The position numbers and the translations under genes are program-made. Shown one piece after another: positions 54,874-64,000 of a stretch of 64,000 nt of DNA. Position 1 is the stretch's first letter; the number at the start of each line of letters is the position of its first letter. The notes below the pieces were generated by a model that saw only the letters and a list, made by a program, of their open reading frames with translations, ran no database searches and was not told where the DNA came from. Origin of the DNA: Candidatus Desulfofervidaceae bacterium. GTDB taxonomy: Bacteria > Desulfobacterota > Desulfofervidia > Desulfofervidales > Desulfofervidaceae. The DNA lies in assembly GCA_027038965.1 (NCBI GenBank), contig JALWFG010000018.1, positions 62,001 to 126,000 on the forward strand. The letters run 5' to 3'.

Positions 54874-56718
54874 TTAACGCTCAACAGGTAAGATGATAAC
54901 ACAAGTTGTGCCTTTACCTATCTCACTCTCAAATACAATAGTTCCTCTATGTCCTTCTATAAGTTTTTTAGAAATAGCAAGCCCTAACCCACTGCCTTTG
55001 GACTTGGTTGTAAAGAAGGGATCAAAAATTTTTTTAAGGTCCTCTGGGGAAATTCCTTTTCCGGTATCTTTAACCGTAATTTCAATATTATCTCCCCTTA
55101 AAGCAGTAGTCACTGTCAAGGTCCCGCCTTCAGGCATGGCTTCAATGGCATTTTTTAAAACATTGAGTAATACCTGTTTTATCTGTCTTTCATCCAATAA
55201 GGTCTGAGGAATTTTCTTATCTAATGTCTTAACTAATTTAATCTTCTTCTCATTCAATGTGGGTCCTAACAAAATGAATATCTCTTCCAAAATTTTGTTA
55301 ATATTAGCAAGAGTAAATTGAGGTTTAGTAAATCTTGTAAAATCGCTAATATCAATAAGAAATTGGTTTAGTCTTTGAATTTCCTCAAGAATAATCTGGA
55401 GCTTTTGACGATTTTTCTCATCTTGACTCGATTTCAATAACTGTTGGGTAAAACCACCAATTATTATTAAAGGATTTTTGATCTCATGACAAATATAAGA
55501 TACCCCTCGACCTATGGTAGCCAGTCTTTCTGATTGCAAGATTTTTTCTTCCAACTCCCTTTTTTCTGTTAAATCTCTAAATACCGCTACAGTTCCCATC
55601 CTTTCGCCTTTTTCTGTAAAGATTAAGGCCGCAGAAAGCCACACAGGCACAGATTCTCCCGTTTTTTTCAAGACTTCTGTTTCATAATTTTTTAGCTTAC
55701 CTTTCCCTCCAAAGGCATCATCATATAAATCCCGCTCAATTCTCTTGGCCAAACCCGGGGGAAAGAGGTCCTTAAATTTCATCTTTCCAACCACTTCTTC
55801 ATGTGAATAACCGAAAATAGATTCTGCCCTATCATTAAACACCACAATGTTTCCTTCTGCATCTGTTCCAACAATGCCATCAATTGAATTTTCAATAAGA
55901 TTTCGCTGGAAGTCATACATTCGTTTTAATCTATCCCGAGATGACTTCAAATCAGAAGTTAGTTTTATTAAACTTCTTTGCATTTCTCTAAAGGCAGTAG
56001 TCAACTCCCCTATTTCATCCTTCGTCCGTACAGGGGGAATCTCTTTATCAAGGTTGCCAGATGCGATAGTTTTGGCAGCAGAGGTTAATCTTCTAACTGG
56101 GACGACTACCATGTAATGCAAGAGGGCACCAATTAGGCCAAATAGAAGTAAAAGCGTAATCAAAAAACTAATTATCAAACTGTTTCTATGATGTTCCAAC
56201 TTCTTCTCCACGCCATTCCAATCAAACCCAAGGGTCAACACTCCCAGTATTCGCTCTTCACTTCCATGGCATTTATAACAAGCCTTTTCATTAAAAATAG
56301 GAACGGCATACCTATATACCTTTTCATTCAACCTAGTTTCTATACCACTTGTTAATTTGTGAGAATTTAAAGCTTGCAAAGTTATTTTAGAAGTAGTAGG
56401 CTTACCAATCCTCTCAGGGGTGCCACTATATTTAATCACACCTTTCAAATTACAAAGATGAATTAACCTAAGATCCTTTAAGGCATTGATTCTTTCTAAG
56501 ATTGCTTGAACATACTCCATTTCTCCATCTAGCATAGGATACTCTATACTTTTCATAATGCTATCTGTAATATCAAAGGCCTTTTTTCTTGATTCTTCTA
56601 AAAAAACATTTTCATAGGTTTTCAAATCTCTGTAAGTAAAGGTAGCCAAAATTAAGACAAGAACTAAACCCAGACTTACAAGGAGTTTTACTCTTAGACT
56701 ATATAATAGACTAGCCAT
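54874..56718 (-). CDS. Sensor histidine kinase with periplasmic c-heme (CXXCH) sensor
   Basis: 614 residues. Membrane segments at about 10-28 and 181-202 enclose a periplasmic domain of about 150 residues containing one CYKCH (147-151), so heme c is likely bound and may be the redox or gas sensor. HAMP (about 200-255), PAS (about 270-390), HisKA with His near 411 (ICHEIKNPL) and HATPase (505-614; DTGKGI, GSGLGLAI) follow. The layout recalls DUF3365-type heme sensor kinases. Two nt after a tetraheme cytochrome gene; no receiver protein is adjacent, so the partner is elsewhere. Confidence 0.9.
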   Translation of the reverse strand: MASLLYSLRVKLLVSLGLVLVLILATFTYRDLKTYENVFLEESRKKAFDITDSIMKSIEYPMLDGEMEYVQAILERINALKDLRLIHLCNLKGVIKYSGTPERIGKPTTSKITLQALNSHKLTSGIETRLNEKVYRYAVPIFNEKACYKCHGSEERILGVLTLGFDWNGVEKKLEHHRNSLIISFLITLLLLFGLIGALLHYMVVVPVRRLTSAAKTIASGNLDKEIPPVRTKDEIGELTTAFREMQRSLIKLTSDLKSSRDRLKRMYDFQRNLIENSIDGIVGTDAEGNIVVFNDRAESIFGYSHEEVVGKMKFKDLFPPGLAKRIERDLYDDAFGGKGKLKNYETEVLKKTGESVPVWLSAALIFTEKGERMGTVAVFRDLTEKRELEEKILQSERLATIGRGVSYICHEIKNPLIIIGGFTQQLLKSSQDEKNRQKLQIILEEIQRLNQFLIDISDFTRFTKPQFTLANINKILEEIFILLGPTLNEKKIKLVKTLDKKIPQTLLDERQIKQVLLNVLKNAIEAMPEGGTLTVTTALRGDNIEITVKDTGKGISPEDLKKIFDPFFTTKSKGSGLGLAISKKLIEGHRGTIVFESEIGKGTTCVIILPVER

Positions 56719-56720
56719 TG

Positions 56721-57134
56721 TTAAAATTCTCTATGTCCATGTCGGCTATGACACTTAGTGCAAAGATTATGGGGGATTTTAATCGTTTTTCTCTTTTCTT
56801 CTACAGTTTTGGCCTTGATATGCAAACTAGCAGGCCCATGACATACTTCACATTGAACGTTTTTCAAATAGGGAGTCTTTTCTACACTAATAAAACCACC
56901 AGGCTTTCCGTATCCTGTCGTATGACAAGGCAAACATTGAGGGTCGTGCTCTTTGTGGCGCATTTCCAAGATACGGAAATTCCTAGAACGCTTAAATCCT
57001 GAATAGGCCTCAACAATGGCTGAGTGGCAGGGTCTACATTTTTCCATCCCTACATAGACGGCTTGGTCGGCAAAAACATTAGAAAAAAAACTGGAAGATA
57101 CGAAAAATACTAATATAGCAATCCTCTCTATCAT
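56721..57134 (-). CDS. Tetraheme cytochrome c, c554-like domain
   Basis: 137 residues with a signal peptide (about 1-22, ending VFA). Four CXXCH: CRPCH (with the YVGMEKC lead), CLPCH, CEVCH and CTKCH. CLPCHTTGYGKPGGF followed by VQCEVCHGPAS is the pattern of the cytochrome c554 family. Periplasmic. Two nt before the heme sensor kinase, hence co-transcribed; it may present electrons to, or be sensed by, that kinase. Function inferred. Confidence 0.88.
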   Translation of the reverse strand: MIERIAILVFFVSSSFFSNVFADQAVYVGMEKCRPCHSAIVEAYSGFKRSRNFRILEMRHKEHDPQCLPCHTTGYGKPGGFISVEKTPYLKNVQCEVCHGPASLHIKAKTVEEKRKTIKIPHNLCTKCHSRHGHREF

Positions 57135-57256: not shown

Positions 57257-58192
57257 CTATTTCTTCCCTCCTGTAGAAACCGTCTTAGTTGGCAAGTTGT
57301 GAGGATCTATATGGCAAGTCAAACAATTCGGGAATTTTTTAAGCAAGGCTGCACTATGAGGCTGTTCATGGCACTCTTGACATTTGGGGATATAGCCATG
57401 TTTGGTGTGACATTCAACACACGCAACATCATGATGTTTACTCTTGTTAGCCGCCAATGTTTTGACTATATCACCATGGCAAGCACTACAAATCTCGTTT
57501 GAAGTATCTGGCTTGAAGACCATGGGACGTGTTGGACTATGCACTGGATGACATTCCAAACATTGCTGATTAGTAGTTAAACTAGCCACATGAGGTTCGT
57601 GACAGTCCAAGCACGAGGGGATATAACCGTGTTTTTCATGGCAAAAAGAGCACTTTTGCTGGGCATGCTTACTAGGAAACTTTTTCATCTCTGCTAAAAT
57701 CTTGGGATGACACTTGTCACAATTTGCTTCTAAAACATCGCTCATAGGAACCCTTCTAGGCGCATGAGCCTCAACATGACATTTTTGACAATCTTTCAAC
57801 ACAGGGGCATTCTTCCCATGAGGATAGCCGTGACAATCGACACACTTAGGCACAATCTTATTCCAAATCTTTGCAGCCCTAAATACATGATATACTTTAT
57901 GGCAATTTGTGCATTGAAATTGGTGTTTCCCACCTTCCTTTAAAATTGTCTCATAAACTGAGGTGTGACAGCGTCCACATTCAGCAGGAGTCATAGGTTT
58001 TATTTCTGGAAGATACAACTGCTGCTTTTTTGATTCCTTTTTAGCTTCCTTTTTCAAGACTTTTGCTGCCGCGGCTTCTTTTTTAGAAGTTGGTGCAGTA
58101 GGCTTCTCTTTAATCTGAGGCTGAACACAGCCCACCAATGCAAGGGCCAAAACCAAACTGATTCCACCTAAAAAAGCAATTATCCTTTTCAT
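57257..58192 (-). CDS. 12-heme cytochrome c lipoprotein
   Basis: 311 residues. A lipoprotein signal with lipobox LVGC (Cys near 22) is followed by a Lys/Ala/Pro-rich linker and 12 CXXCH: CGRCH, CTNCH, CVDCH, CQKCH, CDKCH, CSFCH, CLDCH, CLECH, CSACH, CVECH, CQECH and CLTCH. Many are followed by a histidine within 2-6 residues, suggesting bis-His hemes. It is a paralogue of the gene upstream (shared NKxKHHD and AALLKKFPNC-like endings). Likely anchored in the inner or outer membrane and facing the periplasm. GGAGGGG ribosome site; terminator downstream. Confidence 0.9.
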   Translation of the reverse strand: MKRIIAFLGGISLVLALALVGCVQPQIKEKPTAPTSKKEAAAAKVLKKEAKKESKKQQLYLPEIKPMTPAECGRCHTSVYETILKEGGKHQFQCTNCHKVYHVFRAAKIWNKIVPKCVDCHGYPHGKNAPVLKDCQKCHVEAHAPRRVPMSDVLEANCDKCHPKILAEMKKFPSKHAQQKCSFCHEKHGYIPSCLDCHEPHVASLTTNQQCLECHPVHSPTRPMVFKPDTSNEICSACHGDIVKTLAANKSKHHDVACVECHTKHGYIPKCQECHEQPHSAALLKKFPNCLTCHIDPHNLPTKTVSTGGKK

Positions 58193-58204: not shown

Positions 58205-58915
58205 TTATTTTACCAAAGCATGGGCATCATTATGACAGTCTATGCACTTAGGATATTTGGCCAACATTGCAGCTGGATGTGGAGTCCCATGGCAGGTTTC
58301 ACAGTCAGGCACTACCCCATGTTTATTACGATGGCAATAAACACAAGCCAAATCATGATGCTTGGTCTTATTCTTAGCTAGGGTATTTACGATATCATCG
58401 TGACATGGGGCACAAAAGCTATTAGGAGTATTATCTTTGTAAGTAATCACCAATGGCTGATGTGGTGGGTGACACATTAAACAATCTTTGTTGGTCATTT
58501 CGGCACTATGAGGCTCGTGGCATTTACTACATTTAGGAACAAACCTATGTTTAACATGACAGTCGTTACATGCCAACTTAGTATGAGCACTAGGGTGTGC
58601 CTTCAACTGTTGCTCTTCTTTAGTATGGCAGGTAAGACACTCCTTTACCAATTTACCCTTAAAGGCGATATTCAAAGGTTCATGGGGATTCTGGTGACAA
58701 CCTAAACAATTAGCCAGTTTATAATGGGGCTTACCAGAATGGCATTCACTACATTTAGGAATGGCCTTCTCTTTGGGATACATAGGAGGATGAACTTGGT
58801 GACAATCTAAACAACCAACTTCTGTCTTATGTTTGCCCCCGTGTTCCTGAACTTGCTTAACAATTTTAGGATGGCATTTAATACAATCCTTATTGCTTAA
58901 CTCAGGAGCTTCCAT
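58205..58915 (-). CDS. 12-heme cytochrome c, N-terminus separated by a frameshift
   Basis: 236 residues from the first ATG of the frame. Twelve CXXCH: CIKCH, CLDCH, CSECH, CLGCH, CLTCH, CNDCH, CSKCH, CLMCH, CAPCH, CVYCH, CETCH and CIDCH. It has no signal peptide in this frame, although c-heme attachment requires export. A good signal peptide lies directly upstream in the next frame (58928-59031), broken by an A8 tract. One base added in the tract joins them. Paralogue of the following 12-heme lipoprotein, 12 nt apart. As written, the gene would yield an unexported product; the full gene probably starts at 59031. Confidence 0.8.
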   Translation of the reverse strand: MEAPELSNKDCIKCHPKIVKQVQEHGGKHKTEVGCLDCHQVHPPMYPKEKAIPKCSECHSGKPHYKLANCLGCHQNPHEPLNIAFKGKLVKECLTCHTKEEQQLKAHPSAHTKLACNDCHVKHRFVPKCSKCHEPHSAEMTNKDCLMCHPPHQPLVITYKDNTPNSFCAPCHDDIVNTLAKNKTKHHDLACVYCHRNKHGVVPDCETCHGTPHPAAMLAKYPKCIDCHNDAHALVK

Positions 58916-58927
58916 CTGCTGAGGCTC

Positions 58928-59031
58928 TTTTTTTTCTTCTCTGCTGCATAACCATCCCGAACTCCCACACTAAAGAAAAGGGCTATTACAAAAAAACACA
59001 CCACATGCAAACTCAAACGTCTCCAAGTCAT
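58928..59031 (-). other. Out-of-frame signal peptide of the 12-heme cytochrome
   Basis: ATG at 59031 with a GGAGGGGGAGGG ribosome site. The translation opens MTWRRLSLHVVCFFVIALFF and continues through SVGVRDGYAA, a signal peptide ending in AA, then enters the A8 tract (58928-58935). Nine or six As would keep the frame into EPQQMEAPELSNKDC of the cytochrome. Confidence 0.75.
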
Positions 59032-59065
59032 TCCCTCCCCCTCCATTTCCACTGAATTACTTCAC

Positions 59066-59188: not shown

Positions 59189-60055
59189 TCAGTGCAAATC
59201 AAATACTTGCACCCTGCCATTTCCAGTATCGACCACAAAAATCTTGCCTGTTCCGCTCAATAAAAGATACTGAGGGTAGTAAAACCTACCTTCCTTCCAA
59301 CCAAGTTTCCCAAATTTGCCAACCATTTCTCCGTTTGGGTTGAAAAGGATAATTTTTCCCTTTACTTTATCTAGCACATATAAAGTCCCCCTCTCGTCTA
59401 CATCTAGGCTAACCGGGGAAACTACCCCCTTTAATTTAATCACTCGCTCAAAATTACCCATAGGAGAATAAATAAATACCCGTTTTAAGAGTGAGTCCAA
59501 GACATAAAGGTGTCCATTGCGAACTTTAATATCATCAATTCCTGCTGCCTTTTCTTTAATCCATTTCTTCAGAGAGTATCCGCCTGCTTTTGGCTCAAAA
59601 ATGAATATGCATTTTTTCCCCTTATCAACTACATACAAGTAGCCATCATAAAAGGCCAATCGGTAAGGAATTACCCTTTGATGGTAAGCAGAAAAGTCCA
59701 AGGGCAAGATTTTCTTCTCTTTCAGATAAATAACATAGACTTTGTGATCGCCCGCACAACTAACAACAATCCTTCCTTTATCATCCCTTACCATGGCAAT
59801 AGGTAAGTTTAATTTGCCTCCGGCAGTAAATTCCGATATATATTTATACTGACTATTAAAAGAAACCAGCCTATTGTTCAAAGAATCGACTATATATAGT
59901 CTTTGCCTTCCTGAATCCCAAAAGGCAAACTGAGGTTGATTAAACACCAACTCATTGCCATAAATAACACCATCAAGTTCCGTTTTTACCCCAGCCCAAA
60001 GTCCAGTAGCCATGAGACAAATAGCACATATTATTAAAAGGCAACCCTTTCTCAC
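59189..60055 (-). CDS. Secreted NHL-repeat beta-propeller protein
   Basis: 288 residues with a signal peptide (about 1-21, ending LWA). About six NHL-type repeats are seen, e.g. FWDSGRQRLYIVDSLNNRLVSF, GHLYVLDSLLKRVFIY and GTLYVLDKVKGKIILF, closing with GKIFVVDTGNGRVQVF. No heme motif. A six-bladed propeller in the periplasm or outside, perhaps a scaffold for the cytochromes. It is 41 nt downstream of the 16-heme gene, last of the giant-cytochrome operon. NHL genes adjoin extracellular electron-transfer cytochromes in several lineages; that is recalled, not tested. Confidence 0.85.
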   Translation of the reverse strand: MRKGCLLIICAICLMATGLWAGVKTELDGVIYGNELVFNQPQFAFWDSGRQRLYIVDSLNNRLVSFNSQYKYISEFTAGGKLNLPIAMVRDDKGRIVVSCAGDHKVYVIYLKEKKILPLDFSAYHQRVIPYRLAFYDGYLYVVDKGKKCIFIFEPKAGGYSLKKWIKEKAAGIDDIKVRNGHLYVLDSLLKRVFIYSPMGNFERVIKLKGVVSPVSLDVDERGTLYVLDKVKGKIILFNPNGEMVGKFGKLGWKEGRFYYPQYLLLSGTGKIFVVDTGNGRVQVFDLH

Positions 60056-60096: not shown

Positions 60097-61299
60097 CTAG
60101 GTCCCTATTTGGTGACATTGGATACAAAGCTCCTTATTATGGTCAAAAATGACGTTATATTTATCCTTAGCCCCCATTGGATGATGGCATGTAATGCAAG
60201 TAATGGGCTGGTGATTACGGGGATCTATTGCCTTTTCCCCCATCGGATGGCTAAATTTAATGTGCTTTCCATGGCAACTTAAACAAGTATTTATACCACC
60301 CTGTTTAAGGAAAAACAAATCATTGCTGGCATGAACGTAATGACATACCAAACACTTTTTATTCTTTACATTGGGATGCTTATATCTATACTTTTTAGAA
60401 GCACTAAACAGCCTTCTTTTTGTTTCTTGATGGCAGGACAAGCAAATTCTGTATGGTCTAGCCTTTAACATCGGTCTCACATCTGCCCTATGAGGGCTGT
60501 GACAATCAAGACACGGATTTTGATTAAGACCTACCTCCAAGTGATTATAAATCCCCTTTTCCGCAAATACCTTAGGATGACACTTTAGACAAAGAGTGCT
60601 GTCTTTTGCCCTTAATTCACAGACCTCTCCATTTTTTATCTGGTGACATGCCTTACACTGCCCTTTAGCGTAGGGTTGATGGACGTATTGCCGTAGCAAA
60701 AATTTACCAGAAGCAGCATGGACATTATGGCAAGAAAGACAAGAAGTACTCTCCTTCATTTGCACCTTGTGAATCTGGCCGACTTTATTTTGGGAATGAC
60801 ATGCAAAACAAATTTCTTTAATGTTGGTTGTTAACAAAAATTGGTAGTTGCTTCCATGGGCCTTGTGGCAGGAAAGGCAATTTTGAGACACCGGTTTATG
60901 AACACGTTTCCCTATTAAAAGGTTATCTTTTTTGTGACATTGGAAACAAAGTTGCTTGGGTGGCTTCCTTAATAACCATTTATTAACCGAGGCATGGGGA
61001 TTATGACACTGGGTGCACTTACCATCAGCCACCGGAAGATGAGCATACTTAACCTTGACTTTTATATGACAAGAAAGACAGGTTTCTTTCACAGTTTTTT
61101 TCAAAAGATGCGGAGAATCTGAGGTATGGCTGCTATGGCATACAGTACATTCTCCCTTTTTCAGCGGAGAATGAACATAACCCATCTGTAATTGTTTCTT
61201 AATTTCAGCATGACAGTTTAAACAGGGCTTTTGGGCATACACTTCAAAAGAATAAAGGAGCAATCCTCCCACTAATATCCAAAAAAGACACCTTTTCAT
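60097..61299 (-). CDS. 16-heme secreted cytochrome c (paired CXXCH repeats)
   Basis: 400 residues with a signal peptide ending VYA (about residue 22). Sixteen CXXCH motifs run to within four residues of the C-terminus (CIQCH). They are arranged as eight paired-CXXCH modules of about 40-45 residues in which a CxxCHxxH is followed by a hydrophobic segment and a CLSCH/CFACH. The H of HxPxxxG segments probably gives distal ligands. Sister of the 26-heme gene one nt upstream. GGGGAGATAAG ribosome site. Periplasmic or extracellular; electron carrier. Confidence 0.92.
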   Translation of the reverse strand: MKRCLFWILVGGLLLYSFEVYAQKPCLNCHAEIKKQLQMGYVHSPLKKGECTVCHSSHTSDSPHLLKKTVKETCLSCHIKVKVKYAHLPVADGKCTQCHNPHASVNKWLLRKPPKQLCFQCHKKDNLLIGKRVHKPVSQNCLSCHKAHGSNYQFLLTTNIKEICFACHSQNKVGQIHKVQMKESTSCLSCHNVHAASGKFLLRQYVHQPYAKGQCKACHQIKNGEVCELRAKDSTLCLKCHPKVFAEKGIYNHLEVGLNQNPCLDCHSPHRADVRPMLKARPYRICLSCHQETKRRLFSASKKYRYKHPNVKNKKCLVCHYVHASNDLFFLKQGGINTCLSCHGKHIKFSHPMGEKAIDPRNHQPITCITCHHPMGAKDKYNVIFDHNKELCIQCHQIGT

Positions 61300-61300
61300 C

Positions 61301-63229
61301 TTATCTCCCCTTTAGAGTGTTATGGCATAACCTACATTTTCCTTCAGCAAAAGGCTTATGCAAAAACTTCTTAAACAATGCCTGACTCGTTGAGCTATGT
61401 GGAGTGTGACAGGAAGTGCAATCTACGTTTGTTAAACTCATACCAAAGTGCTTGGCTTCAAGAGATTTGTCCACTTGATGGCACTTTTGGCATAAACGAT
61501 CATTCTTAGCAACCAAAAGATACTGATTTTCGCTATAATGAGGATAATGACAGGTAAAACATCTTCCTTTCTCTACCGGAGGATGCACAAACACCTTGGC
61601 CTTGGCCTTTTTGATAATGTTTAAATGGCAGGAATAACAAAGTCCCTTCCAAGGCCGATAAAGCTGCCCTTTGATTTTACTGCCATGAGGATTATGACAA
61701 ACTACACACTGCCCCTCTTTTAAAGGCTCATGTACGTCTTTGGCCGTTTGAACCCTCACCTTTATTTCCTTGTGGCAACGATAACAATTATCAGACCCTG
61801 TGAGAATCAGCTCAAAACTATTATTAGAGGCGTGATGAGCATGGCACTTATCACAATTTCCCTGAGCAAATGGGGGATGAATAACTGTCCAATCCCTGCC
61901 CATATCACGATGACATTTCAAGCATATCCTCCGCCTATTGGCAAAGAGGAAAAATTTATAGGAAGAGGAATGGGGATTATGGCACTTATAACATTCCCCC
62001 TTTCGGGCTGGGGTATGAATATTTGTTTTTTTAAACTCTCTGGCTGTATCTTTATGGCAAGAAAAACATAATTGAGAACATTTTTGCGTTAATTCCCATT
62101 TGTAAGGGGAAGCGTGAGCATCGTGACACTTAAGACATTCCTCCTTTTGGGCTGGAGGATGCTTATAAAAACCTTCAAGCATCTTTCTTTGATGACAGGT
62201 AAAACAAGCACCTTTCCCTTGAGAAAGGAGATTCTTAAATGGCGCCGTATGAGGATTATGGCAAACTACACACTTGCCGTTAGCCACAGGGGTATGAAGA
62301 TGTTTCTGAGTGAGTTTCTTTTTCAATTGGACATGGCAACTAAGACAAAGTTTTTTCTCTGGCATTTTGGTAATGCCAACGTAATTGCTGGCGTGGGGAG
62401 AATGACATTTTAAACAATCATTTTGCTTAAACCCCAGATGGACACAGTTTTGATTGAAAGGGGCCTTATTGCGGTCATGACAAGAATAACACAACTTATT
62501 TATCGAAGCCTTCAATTTTAAAGGTTTCTTGGCGTTAGGTCCTGAATGGCACTTGTTACATTCTTTTTTGCACATGGGGACATGAGAATATTTCTTAAAT
62601 AGTCCCTTGTCTGCACTGCTGTGCGGGGTATGACAGTTCAAACAATCCTTACCTTTAATAGGATAATTTGCGTGGGCATCTATAAACTTTTTGTCTTGAG
62701 AATGGCAACTATAACATAGGTCTTCAGGAGTCTGCTTCAGCAATTTGGGATAGGCGCTCACATGGGGATTATGGCAAGTTTCACAGTTTTCAATAGGTTT
62801 ATGGACTATTTTTTGCTCGAATCTGGCCTTTTCATGGCAAGAAAGGCAGGTATCCTTAGGTCCTTTAACTAAATAAAACTTGTTGTTTCCTCCATGGGGA
62901 CTATGACACTTTAGACAATTTCCCTTGGAAAACGGTGGGTGTTTAACATTTCCTTTGGCGTTCTTAACATCCTTATGACAAGAAAAACAAAGTTGGGGCA
63001 AATTCTCTTTTAAATACACCCCCCCAATCAATCCATGAGGACGATGACACTTTTCGCAATTTTTCTCGGCTACCGGCGGGTGTACATATTTGGCTCCTGC
63101 CAATTTGGTATATTCCTTTTGGTGGCATTCAATGCAGCTTTTTTTTACACTAAGTTCGGGCGAAGGGGTAGGATGACAAGCCGTAAAACATATTCCCAAA
63201 AGCGCAATCAAAAAAATTACCTTTTTCAC
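61301..63229 (-). CDS. 26-heme cytochrome c lipoprotein (paired CXXCH repeats)
   Basis: 642 residues from a GTG at 63229, which has AGGAG at 6 nt; the TTG at 63235 touches that site and is less likely. A lipobox (CFTAC, Cys near 18) marks a lipoprotein. I count 26 CXXCH in 13 paired modules of about 45 residues with a recurring VHxPxxxGxCxxCHxPHxS...LCxxCH pattern. One of the largest heme counts for its length (about one heme per 25 residues). Likely at the outer membrane surface, spanning the envelope space. It follows the parvulin stop by 2 nt. Confidence 0.92.
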   Translation of the reverse strand: MKKVIFLIALLGICFTACHPTPSPELSVKKSCIECHQKEYTKLAGAKYVHPPVAEKNCEKCHRPHGLIGGVYLKENLPQLCFSCHKDVKNAKGNVKHPPFSKGNCLKCHSPHGGNNKFYLVKGPKDTCLSCHEKARFEQKIVHKPIENCETCHNPHVSAYPKLLKQTPEDLCYSCHSQDKKFIDAHANYPIKGKDCLNCHTPHSSADKGLFKKYSHVPMCKKECNKCHSGPNAKKPLKLKASINKLCYSCHDRNKAPFNQNCVHLGFKQNDCLKCHSPHASNYVGITKMPEKKLCLSCHVQLKKKLTQKHLHTPVANGKCVVCHNPHTAPFKNLLSQGKGACFTCHQRKMLEGFYKHPPAQKEECLKCHDAHASPYKWELTQKCSQLCFSCHKDTAREFKKTNIHTPARKGECYKCHNPHSSSYKFFLFANRRRICLKCHRDMGRDWTVIHPPFAQGNCDKCHAHHASNNSFELILTGSDNCYRCHKEIKVRVQTAKDVHEPLKEGQCVVCHNPHGSKIKGQLYRPWKGLCYSCHLNIIKKAKAKVFVHPPVEKGRCFTCHYPHYSENQYLLVAKNDRLCQKCHQVDKSLEAKHFGMSLTNVDCTSCHTPHSSTSQALFKKFLHKPFAEGKCRLCHNTLKGR

Positions 63230-63231
63230 TT

Positions 63232-63990
63232 TCAACTCCTAATTTGAAAATCTTTTTCCATTTTTTTAAACTCTTTTTCATTGATTTTTATCTTAGAAAA
63301 TTGGCGCAACTCCTTCAAATATTTGTCAAGAATTTCCCTAAATTTCTTATACCAAAGTTTCTTTTTAATGTCTAGCATAACTTTTTTGTACGGTAAAACC
63401 TCGCCTTCTTTTTTATCTTCTAAACGTAAGATAATAAACTTAAAGTTGTCTTTTAAAACAGGAGTAATCTCCCCAACTTTGAGTTGAGCCAAGCTTGCCC
63501 TTATCTTTGAAGGTAAACGGTTCGCTGAAACCCAACCAAGCAAACCACCATGTTTAGCAGTATCACTAACGGATTTTTTTCTGGCCAAAAGAGAAAAATC
63601 AGCCCCTGCTAACAGCTCTTCTCTAATTTCTTGGGCCTCTTTTTTAGTAGGAACTTTAATAATGCTTAGTTTATAACGGTCAGGCCCCCTAAAATCCTTT
63701 TTATGTCTCAAATAATATTGTTTCATCTCTTTTTCGCTCAGTTTGACTTGGGGAACAATAATTTTTTCTCTAAACGTAAGGGCCAAATAATAACGTTGGT
63801 ATCTTCTCAATGCCTTCTGCAATTGTTTATCTTTTTTAAAATAATTCTTTTTCAAAGCATATTGAGCAACCAAGATTTCATCTATAAGCTTGTTTAGAAC
63901 TTCTTTCTTTATCTTATTTTCGTCCAATTTTAGATGCCATCGTTCAGCCATTGCCTTTTGGCCCCAATAGTAATCTTTAAACACAGCCAT
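63232..63990 (-). CDS. Parvulin-type peptidyl-prolyl isomerase (partial, runs off window)
   Basis: 252 residues seen from an ATG at 63990, but the frame is open to the window edge, so the true N-terminus with signal peptide is probably outside. A SurA-N-like region (ERWHLKLDENKIKKEVLNKLIDEILVAQYAL) precedes a parvulin domain (about 100-200; SIIKVPTKKEAQEIREELLAG, KHGGLLGWVSANRLP) and a helical tail. It is directly upstream of the 26-heme gene, so a foldase for exported cytochromes is the likely job. Distinct from the PpiD-like protein at 22975. Confidence 0.85.
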   Translation of the reverse strand: MAVFKDYYWGQKAMAERWHLKLDENKIKKEVLNKLIDEILVAQYALKKNYFKKDKQLQKALRRYQRYYLALTFREKIIVPQVKLSEKEMKQYYLRHKKDFRGPDRYKLSIIKVPTKKEAQEIREELLAGADFSLLARKKSVSDTAKHGGLLGWVSANRLPSKIRASLAQLKVGEITPVLKDNFKFIILRLEDKKEGEVLPYKKVMLDIKKKLWYKKFREILDKYLKELRQFSKIKINEKEFKKMEKDFQIRS

Positions 63991-64000
63991 GAAATCTTTT

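Follow-up and report, generated by a model that had tools for sequence, protein, structure and literature searches.

Two open questions, the way in which syntrophic sulfate reducers obtain electrons from methane- and alkane-oxidising archaea and the way in which cytochrome wires get out of the cell without losing contact with it, are raised by a gene cluster of a Candidatus Desulfofervidaceae bacterium in which two giant multiheme cytochromes lie between a parvulin foldase and an NHL beta-propeller. The cluster is found at the end of the window, that is, the whole stretch of 64,000 nucleotides analysed here (positions 62,001 to 126,000 of contig JALWFG010000018.1, below C18), and continues beyond it. 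An earlier note, made from the sequence alone, had proposed a surface electron conduit as in electron-exchanging syntrophs. That the cluster is one more member of the known Oet/Osc system is well supported here, and the evidence tilts towards a hybrid outer-membrane machine, which would carry electrons through the envelope and also make and hold an OmcS-type filament.

The four-gene core and its heme sites

The core consists of four open reading frames (ORFs), all real and all on the minus strand, in the order (5' to 3') parvulin, 26-heme cytochrome, 16-heme cytochrome and NHL propeller. The OscH-like parvulin foldase (63232..64000) is incomplete in the window, being cut by its end so that only the 3' part is included; the product of the full gene (C18:125232-126875) is 547 amino acids long and has two PPIC domains behind a signal peptide. 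The OetB/OscI-like 26-heme cytochrome (61301..63235, 644 amino acids, TTG start), recognised by its CXXCH count, its clade and its match to the MtrA profile, is predicted on the cell-surface side. The OetA/OscJ-like 16-heme cytochrome (60097..61299, 400 amino acids) has a cleavable signal peptide and, from its CXXCH count and its MtrA-like profile and fold, would be placed in the periplasm or as a barrel plug. The exported NHL beta-propeller (59189..60055, 288 amino acids) was assigned through Pfam NHL and the DUF5128 six-bladed propeller.

The ORF calls and Pfam, which also assigns the NHL and PPIC domains to the propeller and the parvulin, agree with the earlier note on the packing of these genes on the minus strand, while its range of 60097-63990 leaves out the NHL gene (59189-60055). 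The steps of 1 and 41 nt given there between the genes hold; the step of 2 nt between the parvulin and 26-heme genes does not, as with the TTG start the two overlap by 4 nt. The 26-heme protein, which had been called a lipoprotein, has an imperfect lipobox (FTAC), yet a cysteine is present at this place in 10 of 12 orthologues, and the protein is a probable lipoprotein.

The counts of 26 and 16 CXXCH motifs were borne out by motif counting and by a shuffling test, in which 2000 shuffles of the residues gave a mean of 0.42 motifs (maximum 5) for the 26-heme protein and 0.26 (maximum 4) for the 16-heme protein. Pfam finds 13 Paired_CXXCH_1 stretches in the former and 8 in the latter, and the two-motif repeat has a median of 48 residues, not the approximately 45 estimated earlier. 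The proteins contain 55 and 35 histidines, respectively, so that two axial ligands are possible for every heme. All 26 CXXCH of the 26-heme protein are invariant among 12 sequences, including relatives at 33-61% identity.

Relatives of the cluster and the genes beyond the window

The alignment of the 26-heme protein was compared with 84,980 species genomes, giving 116 places with a relative, the best 80 of which were taken further as named loci; the partner genes were sought with their own family profiles around the 26-heme gene in the named loci with enough flank. The parvulin, a peptidyl-prolyl isomerase (PPIase), precedes the 26-heme gene, just as it does in the host, in 68 of 71 loci, and the other partners were found in similar proportions: the 16-heme gene (65/72), NHL (61/68), hyp183 (60/64), the PelC/LpoB-like gene (54/58) and the barrel (54/56). 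Several of the partners counted as missing were mislabelled, the 26-heme and 16-heme genes having been read as one 42-heme frame. The genes are kept together in the named loci, an outcome opposite to the lack of conservation that the earlier note had held would tell against its proposal.

The common order, found in Candidatus Desulfofervidus auxilii (HotSeep-1, G002) and many relatives, is YVTN propeller, barrel, PelC/LpoB-like, (Ig), hyp183, PPIase, 26-heme, 16-heme and NHL, and this block order is kept in most of the 80 named loci. The HotSeep-1 locus reads OmcS-like, 8-heme-like, YVTN, barrel, LpoB-like, Ig, hyp183, PPIase, 26-heme, 16-heme, NHL; the same core cluster is thus present in a syntroph genome, where the earlier note had advised looking. 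The carriers include Geomonas, Citrifermentans, Geobacter sp. H2geo, Anaeromyxobacter, Malonomonas and Thermosulfurimonas, as well as metagenome-assembled genomes (MAGs) labelled Nitrospirae, Acidobacteria and Rokubacteria. In a tree of 82 26-heme proteins made with a quick method, the host protein falls in a fully supported six-member Desulfofervidales clade with AUK281, HotSeep-1, G003 and two further MAGs, and the neighbouring clade includes an Eth-SRB1 genome. In one relative (G021), a 1639-amino-acid frame with 38 CXXCH adjoins the Oet/Osc block (L058:11777-16696).

The earlier note had seen no porin and left two alternatives, a porin beyond position 64000 or a system working without one. 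Reading further (positions above 64000 continue the window numbering on the same contig, upstream along the operon), a beta-barrel protein of 691 amino acids without a Pfam match was found at 69921-71996 (C18:131921-133996), 5.9 kb past the window end, and the second alternative was rejected. Between the parvulin and the barrel lie hyp183 (65089-65640, C18:127089-127640), a transmembrane (TM) protein (65648-66199), a 5-heme fn3 cytochrome (66215-67375), an Ig-domain protein (67308-68672), its SPOR/CsgG-like N-terminal part (68516-69346), split off by a frame change, and an LpoB/CsgG-like lipoprotein (69343-69909, C18:131343-131909). The frame change falls at C18:130516-130672, near T/A runs, and in relatives a single frame encodes both the CsgG-like and the Ig part. 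Past the barrel are a YVTN propeller (72013-73425), an 8-heme cytochrome (73416-74864) and an OmcS-like cytochrome (74743-75846, C18:136743-137846).

Skennerton 2017 (PMC5539420) reported the same four-gene core, encoding the PPIase, the 26- and 16-heme cytochromes and the six-bladed propeller, from SEEP-SRB1, from Ca. D. auxilii and from Desulfuromonadales, and found no porin. Murali 2023 (PMC10553843) later named the periplasmic OetA, the porin OetI and the extracellular lipoprotein OetB, together with partners like OmcX/OmcS and a fibronectin cytochrome, OetF, and gave Oet clusters for HotSeep-1 and its Desulfofervidales neighbours. Compared with the Oet clusters of HotSeep-1 and the SEEP-SRB partners of anaerobic methanotrophic archaea (ANME), the host has the same core genes, order and heme counts (26 + 16), and the barrel adjoining the four-gene core is orthologous to that of HotSeep-1, with 44% identity over 681 residues (54% for the 26-heme protein). 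The differences are that the host keeps the fn3 cytochrome and the TM protein between Ig and hyp183, both missing in HotSeep-1; that the third motif of its OmcS-like protein is CX5CH, instead of CXXCH; and that a pair of 12-heme genes is downstream of the cluster in the host and upstream in HotSeep-1.

In Geobacter, according to two papers that cite the primary work (PMC12977616, PMC13194489), the osc block ('nanowire assembly', omcS companion; GSU2500-GSU2493) contains the 26-heme oscI (GSU2495) and oscJ (GSU2494) and has been tied to the maturation and secretion of OmcS; OscH is assigned to folding, OscE/F/G to secretion and OscD to morphology. Geobacter sp. H2geo and Geomobilimonas luticola are among the species said there to have the eight-gene block; in both loci (L141, L148) the eight-gene order was found directly, with an OmcS-like gene upstream. 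The host likewise has the YVTN, barrel, two small proteins, PPIase, 26-heme, 16-heme and NHL genes, with the Ig, fn3 and TM genes, additional to the Geobacter block, interposed, and an OmcS-family hexaheme gene upstream (C18:136743-137846). Its 26-heme protein has approximately 35% identity to that of Geobacter, and the host differs in being a sulfate reducer. The Osc letters used here for the host genes are presumptive, having been assigned by gene order.

With MtrCAB of Shewanella (6r2q) the resemblance is one of fold and profile. The barrel modelled with AlphaFold was the L072 orthologue (L072:3135-5195) in place of the host's own, aligned with 29 others; the model, with a mean predicted local distance difference test score (pLDDT) of 91 and about 28-31 strands of at least 10 residues, has MtrB (6r2q_B, E 1.6e-9) as its best PDB match. 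By sequence, the barrel gave no match in Pfam and none in the PDB (single-sequence phmmer), the likeness to MtrB being in fold only. An inserted domain is present in the model at approximately residues 234-365, perhaps discoidin-like by its sequence pattern. The AlphaFold2 model of the host 16-heme protein, made with 29 orthologues (pLDDT 82.5), has MtrA (6r2q_A, E 2.3e-6) as its sole significant PDB fold match, and the family profiles of the 26-heme (1e-29) and 16-heme (1.7e-31) proteins also match this chain first; 6r2q_A carries the wrong label cystathionine beta-synthase in the PDB file and, as chain A of the Mtr complex, was read as MtrA. An MtrA-like cytochrome is thus present, sequence homology between the barrel and MtrB was not found, and the host system differs from MtrCAB in its inserted barrel domain and its 16 + 26 hemes, with no MtrC relative seen.

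The LpoB-like protein and hyp183, corresponding to OscF and OscG, are paralogues of each other (hhalign 99.9%), and for both families the best match among solved structures is PelC, a lipoprotein that forms the ring in a polysaccharide export channel (1.5e-10 and 4.2e-6); on their members, Pfam assigns LpoB, CsgG and GNA1162. In contrast to PelB-PelC, there is no sign that the barrel is PelB, and the cargo would be protein instead of polysaccharide.

Electron conduit, filament machine or both

The OmcS-like protein of the host has five CXXCH motifs, and the segment CAGTYGCHG (CX5CH) replaces the third motif of OmcS. Both cysteines of the segment are kept in all 45 proteins that have it (from 29 named loci and the host genome), and sister proteins, one of HotSeep-1 included, have CXXCH at the aligned place. 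In the literature searched, CX5CH together with heme and cytochrome was not found. Judging from the sequence, heme may be bound at CX5CH, possibly as a non-canonical site in a wire-forming family. The profile of the OmcS-like family matches OmcS (6ef8) over the full length at 7.5e-98, a score raised by the Geobacter-type members of the alignment; with single-sequence phmmer against the PDB, neither the OmcS-like nor the 8-heme protein gave a match, and for the former only the family profile worked. The histidine after the first motif is invariant in the family; in OmcS, this residue ligates the heme of the next protomer.

Here it is proposed, for mechanism, electron direction, partner, protein locations, heme path and filament formation alike, that the cluster would act as follows. 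The parvulin (OscH) and the PelC-like OscF/OscG would handle newly exported cytochromes, both within the periplasm and on the inner side of the outer membrane, which the large barrel (OetI/OscE) would span. The 16-heme protein (OetA/OscJ) would be lodged inside or beneath the barrel, like MtrA in MtrB, and the 26-heme lipoprotein (OetB/OscI) would extend the heme chain at the surface, where the OmcS-like and fn3 cytochromes would form or decorate a wire and the propellers would serve as a scaffold. Electrons would probably move inward: given up by a partner cell or by a mineral, they would pass to periplasmic cytochromes and then to the enzymes of sulfate reduction. A more specific version, held here only tentatively, is that an MtrAB-like electron wire is arranged around a PelC-like export ring, so that a single pore would export, anchor and electrically contact an OmcS-type filament, whose third CXXCH is replaced in this lineage by CX5CH.

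The conduit part of this proposal, already made in the earlier note, is supported by the same-family core of HotSeep-1 and by the MtrB-like barrel. A pure porin-cytochrome conduit, with OetA in the periplasm, OetI as the barrel and OetB outside, and with the parvulin and propellers aiding folding and no filament exported, is so named and modelled by Murali 2023 (PMC10553843) and agrees with the MtrB- and MtrA-like folds and with the lipobox-like cysteine of most 26-heme proteins; however, it leaves unexplained the two conserved PelC-like paralogues and the constant company of OmcS-like cytochromes, and is considered rather unlikely as the whole account. Still less probable is that the cluster serves only nanowire assembly and secretion, the barrel and PelC-like pair exporting OmcS-like protomers, the parvulin folding them and the giant cytochromes acting as chaperones or anchors. 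The tie of GSU2500-GSU2493 to OmcS maturation and secretion, as given in PMC12977616 and PMC13194489, and the PelC-like pair itself favour such a function, but the strict conservation of 26 + 16 heme sites would be puzzling if no electrons were transferred, and the fold match of the 16-heme protein is MtrA. The combination of conduit and filament machine is the simplest account because a plain conduit needs no PelC-like pair and a plain exporter needs no 42 strictly conserved hemes.

Periplasmic nitrite or sulfur cytochromes of the Nrf/Hmc/Tmc type, which the earlier note had named as a competing identity, are very improbable and were rejected, since the NCBIfam similarities, expected for any multiheme c-type protein, are far below the cut-offs (HmcA 37-39 bits against 400, TmcA 37-46 against 114, NrfH 37-55 against 134, NrfB also far below) and, although the host is a sulfate reducer, no catalytic subunit is nearby and barrel and surface genes are conserved instead.

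Several points weigh against the combined conduit and filament machine. The template modelling (TM) scores are only 0.42-0.44 for the barrel model against MtrB and 0.32-0.46 for the 16-heme model against MtrA; being below 0.5, they suggest a resemblance and do not amount to proof of the same complex, and models of cytochromes without their hemes carry little weight. The role of OmcS filaments is itself disputed, according to the abstract of PMC11077965. The sister species of the host (G001) is without the cluster, which is therefore not essential to this genus.

Host genome, neighbouring genes and meaning

The host genome (2.19 Mb in 21 contigs) contains dsrA and aprA above the curated cut-offs, and the host is thus equipped for sulfate reduction. 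It belongs to the Desulfofervidaceae, in another genus than HotSeep-1, the thermophilic sulfate reducer of this family that lives on electrons supplied by methane-oxidising archaea. In G001, which is of the same genus as the host and 100% complete, neither the 26-heme gene nor the barrel was found, and the whole cluster is absent. This species keeps the left flank (FeoB, aldehyde dehydrogenase, FG-GAP, hyp109 and a DUF2250 helix-turn-helix (HTH) protein) on one contig and the right flank (RrmJ, YebC, RuvC/A/B) on a second, with unrelated genes where the cluster would begin; in HotSeep-1 and G003 the cluster is located apart from these flanking genes. The cluster behaves as a module that was gained, lost or moved. 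The upstream DUF2250 HTH and FG-GAP genes were dropped as operon members because G001 keeps them without the cluster.

Downstream of the core, on the minus strand, are a 12-heme cytochrome (58205..58915) and its tandem partner, a 12-heme lipoprotein (57257..58192) identified by ORF and Pfam; the pair also adjoins the cluster in HotSeep-1, G003 and G008. The signal peptide of the former is encoded just upstream in another frame (58916-59060), with the change at an A8 run, either an assembly error or a real frameshift. Further along (54874-57134), a possible heme-based redox sensor is encoded, a histidine kinase with one CXXCH in its Tll0287-like sensor region, 2 nt from a tetraheme c554-like gene. 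The kinase (54874-56718) was dropped as a regulator of the cluster, since its orthologue, with 70% identity, is located elsewhere in HotSeep-1 and G003.

The Oet/Osc system was already known; what is added here is the joining of its descriptions, the link to PelC, the wire protein with CX5CH and the absence in the sister species. Two literatures have given two names to one locus, the Oet conduit and the Osc wire assembly, and the gene block of this host joins them. Because the barrel and 16-heme protein are MtrAB-like and two of their neighbours are like an export ring, separable phenotypes are predicted for single-gene deletions in tractable carriers. Within this genus, a cluster present in one species and not in its sister offers a natural comparison of who can exchange electrons.

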